From Desulfobulbaceae bacterium (GTDB taxonomy: Bacteria > Desulfobacterota > Desulfobulbia > Desulfobulbales > Desulfocapsaceae): a DNA stretch of 22,370 nt. Numbering within the stretch: position 1 is the first letter of the stretch; each line of letters begins with the position of its first letter. This document shows positions 11,329 through 18,998 of this stretch, piece by piece. Position numbers and translations under genes: made by a program. The notes under the pieces were generated by a model that did no database searches, was not told the DNA's origin, and saw only the letters and a list, made by a program, of their open reading frames with translations. The DNA is taken from positions 1-22,370 of the forward strand of contig JAUVON010000007.1 in the NCBI GenBank assembly GCA_030599175.1, read 5' to 3'.

Positions 11329-11487
11329 ATGGCAAAATGGAAATGCCCTTGTGGTTACATTTATGATCCCGCAGATGGAGATGAAGACAATGGTGTAGCC
11401 AAAGGAACAGCCTGGGAGGATGTACCCGAAGATTGGGTTTGTCCTCTTTGTGGTGCAGAAAAGGACGCCTTTTTTGAGGTTGACTGA
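11329..11487 (+). CDS. Rubredoxin
   Basis: A 52-residue one-iron electron carrier, too short for many gene callers. It has the rubredoxin pattern: GYIYDP, then a Gly/Asp-rich turn ([13 protein letters not shown]), then [16 protein letters not shown]. The second iron knuckle is the usual CPLCG (Cys38, Cys41). The first is CPCG (Cys6, Cys8), with one residue between the cysteines instead of two. The ATG at 11329 follows a strong GGAGG eight bases upstream, and the gene has its own promoter and a likely terminator. In anaerobes rubredoxin donates electrons to superoxide reductase, rubrerythrin or rubredoxin:oxygen oxidoreductase. Desulfoferrodoxin is encoded in this window about 7 kb away. Confidence 0.93.
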
Positions 11488-11581: not shown

Positions 11582-11738
11582 TGATGGTTTCGCAAAAAAC
11601 CTAATTCGCAGGATGGATTCGTAAAAAGCTTCATATCCGAGGCGCATAAATTTTCTATCATTTCGTCGTACTAAAGTACGTCGGAATGATAGAAAATTTA
11701 TAGCAACGAAGTAGATGAAGAGTTTTTACGATTCCATC
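11582..11738 (+). repeat. Palindromic GTAAAAAG-family repeat, copy B, with nested long hairpin
   Basis: The outer arms are 11612-11634 and about 11715-11738. The left reads GATGGATTCGTAAAAAG and the right, reversed, GATGGAATCGTAAAAA; both continue into CTTCAT. Inside lies a second inverted repeat, 11646-11672 with 11675-11701, pairing at 25 of 27 positions around a two-base loop. A further left-end-like half (TGATGGTTTCGCAAAAAAC, 11582-11600) precedes the element, mirroring the doubled left end of copy A. The right end stops one base short of the stop codon of the selenoprotein gene, which is read from the other side. In RNA the whole would form one long cruciform-like hairpin and may act as a bidirectional transcript end. 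Confidence 0.8.
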
Positions 11739-11739
11739 A

Positions 11740-12081
11740 TTACTCTTTAATCAGAGTCTCATACATCTCGTCATTATAACCGATATAGAACACATCACCT
11801 CGTCTTAGAGCTGGTGCTCGAAGATTTCCGGTTCTACCAGTCACCCTTTTCAACAGTTCTTCTCTATCAGCTGTTTCAGGGTTGAACTCGAGAATCTTCG
11901 TACCGCTGGTAACGTAGATTTTCTCCGCAGCACCAAGTAAATCCCAGACACCGTCAATTTTCAAGGTATCCTTGGCCGCATTTACTTCTTCAGCCACAGA
12001 GACATTGCTCTGCTCAAAAACCGCCCGGGCTTTTTTACAAGAGACTCACCCTTTACGCATATACGCCCAATCTATGCTCAT
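11740..12081 (-). CDS. ArsC-family selenoprotein with UxxC motif (in-frame UGA read as selenocysteine)
   Basis: From an ATG at 12081, with a strong ribosome binding site (GGGGGAG five bases upstream), the frame runs for 113 codons with a single internal TGA at codon 12 (12046-12048). It reads MSIDWAYMRKG-U-VSCKKARAVFE. The UGA falls at the first position of a U-x-x-C motif at the end of the first strand, where thioredoxin-fold ArsC/Spx-like proteins have their redox cysteine. The downstream part (KVTGRTGNLRAPALRRGD) resembles the C-terminal ArsC-like region. A hairpin fitting a bacterial SECIS element follows the UGA. Without recoding, only an 85-residue GTG-initiated fragment without an active site would be called. 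It lies 52 bases after ferritin on the same strand, so is probably co-transcribed. Its substrate is unknown; an arsenate reductase role is not supported by context. SelA/B/C genes are not in the window. Confidence 0.88.
12008..12043 (-). promoter_or_regulatory. Putative bacterial SECIS element
   Basis: On the minus-strand mRNA the hairpin begins two bases after the UGA. Its lower stem is CUCU (12043-12040) with AGAG (12011-12008), followed by an internal loop. The upper stem is AAAAA (12035-12031) plus CC with GG plus UUUUU (12020-12016), with one bulged G at 12030. The five-base apical loop is CGGGC (12027-12023). The loop starts 18 bases after the UGA and has a G among its first two bases. 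Both features agree with the published general pattern of bacterial SECIS elements. Folding was judged by eye. Confidence 0.7.
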
Positions 12082-12133
12082 CTTTACTCCCCCCTTCTAA
12101 TTTTATACAGTGATATTGAAATTGAGAAAAATA

Positions 12134-12640
12134 TTATTCTGCAGGGAGTGTGAAAACTCGTTTCCCCATCTCCAGATCCATAGCAAACATACCTGCAGAA
12201 TCATCACCAATCATTTTCATTTTCTCGACAACTTCTCCCACTGAAGCTTCTTCTTCCACCTGTTCAGCGACAAACCACTGTAAAAAATTATTGGTAGCGT
12301 GGTCTCTTTCTGCAAGAGCCGCATCCACAAGATCATTTATAAGCCCGGTAACCTTAGCTTCGTGAGCTGCTGTTTCCTTTATTACCTCAAGCGGCGAAGA
12401 CCAGTTACACTGAGGCTTATCAATTGCCTCGAATCCTGCACTCCCACCTCTTTCAAGGAGATAATCAAGCATTTTTGTTGAATGGTAAAGTTCTTCCTGG
12501 GCCTGAGCACGCATCCAACTTGCAAACCCGGAAAGACTCCTTTCACTAAACCAGGTTGACATAGAGAGATAGAGATAGGAAGAATATAATTCAGCATTTA
12601 TCTGGCCATTAATGACCTCAGTCATTTTCTTACTTATCAT
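12134..12640 (-). CDS. ftnA: Bacterial non-haem ferritin
   Basis: This 168-residue ferritin forms the 24-subunit iron-storage shell and oxidises Fe(II) at a di-iron ferroxidase centre. The ligands stand at the classical bacterial FtnA positions: Glu17, Glu50 and His53 (EELYH), Glu94, Gln127 and Glu130. The LYSSYLYLSMSTWF helix and FLQWFVAEQVEEE helix are typical of the family. There is no haem-binding Met at the bacterioferritin position, so this is FtnA-type. The ATG at 12640 has AGGAG about nine bases upstream. It precedes the selenoprotein gene on the same strand by 52 bases, and lies between rubredoxin and the oxidase operon. Confidence 0.95.
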   Translation of the reverse strand: MISKKMTEVINGQINAELYSSYLYLSMSTWFSERSLSGFASWMRAQAQEELYHSTKMLDYLLERGGSAGFEAIDKPQCNWSSPLEVIKETAAHEAKVTGLINDLVDAALAERDHATNNFLQWFVAEQVEEEASVGEVVEKMKMIGDDSAGMFAMDLEMGKRVFTLPAE

Positions 12641-18623: not shown

Positions 18624-18998
18624 ATGGCAGAAAAAATGGCAGTATATAAATGTGAACTTTGTGGAAATATTGTTGAAGTTCTTACAGCCGGATCGGCTGA
18701 GTTGATGTGCTGTGGGCAGCAGATGGTCATGCAGACAGAGAACACAACCGATGCCGCAGTAGAAAAACATGTCCCTGTACTGGAGAAAAAAGGTGATGGC
18801 TGGCAGGTGAGCGTAGGCTCTGTAGATCACCCGATGACCGACGACCACTATATAGAATGGATAGAGCTTATTGCCGGTGATACTGTATATCGCCAATTTC
18901 TCAACCCATCAGACAAACCAACTGCCTATTTTCCATCAGTTGAGGGTGATGTGTCAGCCCGTGCATATTGCAACCTTCATGGTCTCTGGAAAGCCTAA
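18624..18998 (+). CDS. dfx: Desulfoferrodoxin (two-iron superoxide reductase)
   Basis: It reduces superoxide to hydrogen peroxide without producing O2, usually with electrons from rubredoxin. The 124-residue protein has both metal sites. Centre I has the four desulforedoxin cysteines (Cys10, Cys13, Cys29, Cys30). Centre II has His49, His69, His75, Cys116 and His119, with the active-site Glu47 and Lys48 in the EKHVP motif. These are the standard positions of class I enzymes. The ATG has GGAGG seven bases upstream. It is transcribed divergently from the oxidase operon and shares its upstream region. Confidence 0.97.

Follow-up and report, generated by a model that had tools for sequence, protein, structure and literature searches.

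The stretch of DNA analysed here (the window) comprises 22,370 nucleotides of a contig from a Desulfobulbaceae bacterium. Its minus strand carries a short reading frame with a single TGA close to the start codon, and the features of this locus are as follows.

12134-12640, minus strand: ferritin gene (PF00210), upstream of the selenoprotein gene
12086..12094, minus strand: purine-rich ribosome binding site GGGGGGAGT, from direct reading of the sequence
11740..12081, minus strand: predicted ArsC-like selenoprotein gene, 113 aa, with one in-frame TGA (Sec12); NF041106 at E 7.4e-36, 123 bits, cut-off 85
12046..12048, minus strand: TGA very probably read as selenocysteine, codon 12, U12 of the U-V-S-C motif, from the alignment of loci
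12037..12039, minus strand: Cys15 codon, second residue of the UxxC pair, from the alignment of loci
12004..12045, minus strand: candidate SECIS region, a hairpin with the 5-nt apical loop CGGGC that starts 18 nt past the TGA, from folding against codon shuffles
11329-11487, plus strand: rubredoxin gene (PF00301), facing the selenoprotein gene

Direct reading of the minus strand confirms the gene structure described in the first-pass annotation: the sequence AGAAGGGGGGAGTAAAG precedes an ATG at 12081, and this is followed by 11 codons, the TGA (12048-12046), 101 sense codons and a TAA (11742-11740). A Cys codon three residues beyond the TGA gives the motif U-V-S-C. For this region the open reading frame listing of the window holds just an 85-aa frame with a GTG start (11997-11740), matching the earlier expectation that routine gene calling would return a headless protein of that length.

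The read-through product aligns end to end with the NCBIfam model NF041106, 'ArsC family (seleno)protein' (residues 3-107 on positions 1-107 of the 107-position profile), and scores 123 bits (E 7.4e-36) against a curated cut-off of 85, while the headless frame alone reaches 77 bits, below that cut-off. Because the reading frame before and after the TGA fits one curated family over its full length, the match is more than chance, and the UGA occupies the first position of UxxC, as the family requires. The best match in Pfam is glutaredoxin, at its cut-off (22.9). A profile built from 51 sequences (the window protein and 50 relatives) and compared with solved structures retrieved Spx, YffB, a putative arsenate reductase and glutaredoxins, and on this basis the product is predicted to adopt a thioredoxin fold of the ArsC/Spx/glutaredoxin type. 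No substantive difference separates the window protein from NF041106 (ArsC_rel_Se_1), with which it shares the end-to-end match over the cut-off, the Sec at the redox position and the UxxC motif.

The in-frame TGA is widely conserved in the family. Among 58 relatives, a set that includes the window's own genome, 38 contain a match to NF041106, each with exactly one TGA, and 37 of these matches are over the cut-off. The 395 genomes of the phylum yielded 36 matches, 28 of them over the cut-off and each again with exactly one TGA (28/28). Eight over-cut-off genomes are common to both sets, leaving 57 distinct genomes with exactly one in-frame TGA apiece, and Cys at the UGA position was found in none of these 57. 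The eight below-cut-off matches of the larger set comprise five with one TGA and three with no TGA in the matched stretch. The position of the codon was verified in an alignment of 51 of 54 loci, including the window gene (L066, L071 and L072 were left out, the last two being below the cut-off), where the TGA lies at the motif in 51/51. The first-pass annotation had allowed that resequencing might show a sense codon at 12046-12048; this is not borne out, since dozens of other genomes retain the TGA and a sequencing error is therefore very unlikely. At position 15 the aligned loci carry Cys in 50 cases and Ser in one, and the second Cys is thus not absolute, the exception (L041) having UASS. 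The two below-cut-off loci left out of the alignment (L071 and L072; 32-33 bits), which are among the eight mentioned above, represent an ArsC/Spx-like sibling protein that has UTTC and RRPV motifs and a TGA at the redox position; the matched stretch of L071 is free of stops and begins at profile position 11, apparently past the TGA.

A scan of named genomes returned at least 570 relatives, and among the best 80, which were examined, 77 have the TGA (L115 included), three have a Cys codon in its place (TGC/TGT), and all 80 have Cys at +3. Cultured carriers among the named loci include Desulforhopalus vacuolatus (L095) and Desulfopila aestuarii (L106). This is a classic Sec/Cys pair, and it is the pattern of Cys or Sec at residue 12 with Cys at residue 15 for which the earlier note had proposed to search. 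As one of the two scan patterns itself contained Cys at the Sec position, Cys forms are if anything over-represented among the named loci. They belong to Desulfobulbaceae bacterium SZUA-615 (L105), Proteobacteria bacterium KR13_N2.mb.116 (L109) and Desulfurivibrio sp. SURF_16 (L113). A confinement of Cys forms to genomes devoid of SelB was ruled out, selB being over the cut-off in 3/3; these CxxC proteins occur in SelB-keeping genomes, an exchange between Sec and Cys in which the Sec machinery was retained. Six other loci, none of them with Cys, lie in genomes of which five have selB over the cut-off, the exception being that of L133. The rare Cys forms in SelB-keeping genomes offer natural Sec/Cys pairs for testing what the selenol buys.

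Homology at the DNA level continues upstream of the UGA, and the concern that homologues might start only after it is accordingly not borne out. Comparison with five genes from the same genus gives, for the 11 codons that precede the TGA, 1, 1 and 17 changes at codon positions 1, 2 and 3, respectively, corresponding to 14 synonymous and 3 nonsynonymous differences in 55 codon comparisons. The codons ahead of the TGA evolve as protein, under purifying selection. The 16 codons right after the TGA are more variable (8 synonymous and 29 nonsynonymous of 80 compared). Across the 51 aligned sequences W5, Y7, R9, G11, A18, A35, G82, G85, L87, R88, A89, P90, G101 and Y107 are invariant.

These observations bear on two readings of the codon that dispense with selenocysteine, both of which can draw on database annotation. 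Among 108 database relatives, 91 lack the part ahead of the TGA, most of them being entries of 66-102 residues that start past it, and this would agree, as does the headless form given by ORF calling in the window, with a UGA that is a real stop, the gene being either the 85-residue frame from the GTG at 11997 or a pseudogene. We consider such a stop very unlikely: W5, Y7, R9 and G11 lie ahead of the TGA and are invariant in 51/51 loci, strong purifying selection acts on the upstream codons, and 57 genomes retain the TGA, which gives way to Cys codons where it is replaced. The remaining 17 database relatives are full length over the motif and show W at the Sec position, as expected if an altered code had UGA read as tryptophan. 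They come from contigs of 0.5-2.1 kb and are best explained as products of gene calling with a table in which TGA encodes Trp; furthermore, an ordinary TGA (11485-11487) terminates the rubredoxin gene next door, the genome contains tRNA-Sec and selB, and the sense codons found in place of the TGA at the DNA level encode Cys in 3/3 cases, leaving the tryptophan reading with a practically negligible probability. With 91/108 relatives headless and 17/108 bearing a probably false Trp, the family is easy to miss.

At the level of the family, the RNA just downstream of the UGA carries a structure signal. RNAalifold, run on the gap-free alignment of the sequences past the UGA, returned neither a consensus pair nor a shared hairpin, and by eye the hairpin shifts by a few bases between subgroups, for which reason folding energies of 42-nt segments were compared with protein-preserving codon shuffles in the 51 genes. 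The most negative segment spans +3 to +45 relative to the first TGA base (mean z -1.08, s.e. 0.13, n=51), followed by the segments at +207 (z -0.66) and, overlapping the first, +15 (z -0.60). A bSECIS-like loop, defined here as a hairpin that closely follows the UGA, has a G in its apical loop and falls within set numerical limits, occurs in 43/51 genes against 23.7 expected from the shuffles. Related sequences were counted as independent in these family-wide tests, and their errors are therefore too small. The window gene has such a hairpin (loop CGGGC, 18 nt after the UGA; -11.8 kcal/mol); its stability alone is not significant against codon shuffles (z -1.46, p 0.085), and neither is the single-sequence fold against dinucleotide shuffles (z 0.14). 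Structure past codon 12 is weaker in the three Cys genes (z -0.46, -0.15 and -0.83), a number of genes too small to weigh. At E <= 1, Rfam returned five matches of microRNA type, all with scores far short of the gathering threshold, and four of the five fall on a palindrome downstream of the gene.

A survey of selA, selB, selC and selD, as proposed in the first-pass annotation, gave a positive answer for three of the four. The host draft genome encodes selB (368 bits) and tRNA-Sec (selC; 77.2 bits), both over the cut-off, so the refuting case of a genome without selB/selC does not apply. It also has two selD genes over the cut-off, G000:C44:2733-3659 (L047) and G000:C185:3580-4509 (L048), and since each contains one in-frame TGA, the selenophosphate synthetase here is probably itself a selenoprotein. 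In this draft (430 contigs, 86.8% complete) selA was not found; among seven same-genus genomes it is over the cut-off in G002, G005 and G006 and was not found in G001, G003 and G004. For the 58 relatives the corresponding counts are 46 for selA and 51 for selB. Three of the 38 carriers have no selB over the cut-off (G004, G017 and G031), all of them many-contig drafts, and G031 has tRNA-Sec and selA nonetheless. In G004 (72% complete) and G017 (94%) no selB, selA or tRNA-Sec was found over the cut-off, with tRNA-Sec scored in 150/212 and 150/518 candidates, respectively, and our guess is that assembly gaps account for the missing machinery.

Insertion of selenocysteine at codon 12 is very likely in view of the NF041106 match, the conservation of TGA and Cys, the selection on the upstream codons, the RNA signal and the presence of selB, selD and tRNA-Sec. 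We are highly confident that the window gene is a genuine member of NF041106 whose UGA codon 12 specifies Sec, and the original identification of an ArsC-family selenoprotein with U-x-x-C is upheld by the family score, the conserved TGA, the Cys forms and the selB and tRNA-Sec of the host. To call it hidden was an overstatement, as the family is already curated and reviewed. In Table 1 of a 2026 review NF041106 is entered as 'Arsenate reductase-like protein' with UxxC, apparently in the section headed 'Predicted with high confidence' (PMC13188914), and an arsenate reductase-like UxxC family appears in a 2022 review (PMC9312934). The 2008 GOS survey includes two Sec-containing ArsC-like types, 'Arsenate reductase 1' (UxxS) and 'Arsenate reductase 2' (cd03032, UxxC); compared by motif, type 2 has the same UxxC as the window protein and type 1 differs (PMC2398784). 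Fourteen arsenate reductase selenoproteins were already counted in the 2005 Sargasso Sea survey (PMC1088965). With these listings the kind is known, and the result is a correct re-annotation inside an existing curated family, adding a further member and no new kind of protein. Its significance is mostly one of annotation, namely the rescue of a gene that routine calling cuts at the Sec codon.

A catalytic route can be proposed from the predicted fold and the conserved residues. SelB and Sec-tRNA(Sec) would read the UGA at codon 12, in all likelihood guided by the hairpin just downstream. The selenol of Sec12 may then attack a substrate in its oxidised form, with a disulfide or a similar oxidised sulfur species as the most likely candidate, Cys15 would act as the resolving thiol for the intermediate, and a thiol system such as thioredoxin could recycle the enzyme. 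In thioredoxin folds a cis-proline lines the active site, and knowledge of the fold suggests that the conserved G-x-x-G-N-L-R-A-P region supplies it here. Provided that the protein is a selenoprotein, a role as a thiol-disulfide or similar sulfur reductase is probable, and a switch of the Spx type or genuine arsenate reduction appears less likely than such a role. A literature search on the function of the NF041106 family found no paper, which is no proof of absence, and according to the 2026 review nearly all selenoproteins of this sort are largely uncharacterized in function (PMC13188914).

Another reading is that of a selenocysteine-containing, Spx-like regulator in which U-x-x-C would form a redox switch that controls RNA polymerase binding. 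Spx carries CxxC at the same place. The best solved relatives in the profile comparison are Spx chains (E 7.9e-6), and the second-best NCBIfam model is Spx/MgsR (TIGR01617; E 6.3e-6); profile similarity to this group (PDB 3l78, 1z3e) covers nearly the whole length, with a two-residue redox motif near the N-terminus and LRxP within the aligned part. The window protein differs in that Sec replaces the first Cys, and its 26.5 bits are far under the Spx/MgsR cut-off of 75.05. ArsC-like enzymes share the fold with Spx, and similarity of fold alone does not confer RNA polymerase binding, so that a regulator of this type seems unlikely. That it is a selenol redox sensor of the Spx kind acting on RNA polymerase in strict anaerobes is quite unlikely, although, if true, it would make the protein a selenocysteine-based switch of transcription under oxygen or sulfur stress. 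A further reading is a true arsenate reductase using a selenol. The Pfam ArsC model (PF03960) does detect the protein (E 0.00091), albeit with 19.9 against a gathering score of 24 and behind glutaredoxin, which is at its cut-off, and inspection by eye found no ars gene among the ORFs of the window or the 16 largest groups of neighbours. Arsenate reduction is accordingly given a slim chance, and a thiol-disulfide or related sulfur reductase remains the preferred function.

The first-pass annotation also proposed that the protein works with the iron and oxygen-defence genes around it. Neighbours were grouped by BLAST in the 51 loci, over up to ~1.5 kb on each side with some flanks cut by contig ends, and relatives of the window ferritin were found in 12/51 and of the window rubredoxin in 15/51. 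In the first eight loci of each group the ferritin gene lies upstream on the same strand and the rubredoxin gene downstream on the other. A rhodanese-rubrerythrin protein is encoded directly downstream in six other loci (one, from L018, was checked in Pfam), and at L018 a Fur-family regulator follows beyond it. The oxygen/iron link is recurrent, not general, and limited to a minority of relatives; with ferritin and rubredoxin in 12/51 and 15/51 loci, respectively, the iron and oxygen-defence neighbourhood is lineage-local. The rhodanese-rubrerythrin loci lend the proposed partnership some support, and as a claim about the protein's role it exceeds the evidence. In seven loci the upstream gene resembles a type II topoisomerase subunit (named by eye).

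Elsewhere in the window a desulfoferrodoxin gene is found at 18624-18998, and apparent haem-copper oxidase subunit genes, named by eye, at ~13.7-16.9 kb. Between the selenoprotein and rubredoxin genes, at 11612-11738, lies a MITE- or REP-like element that has 16-nt inverted repeats at its ends and encloses a 27-nt palindrome. With 40 of 99 candidates scored, it occupies at least 40 places in the genome including that in the window, at 80-100% identity and mostly over at least 115 bases.
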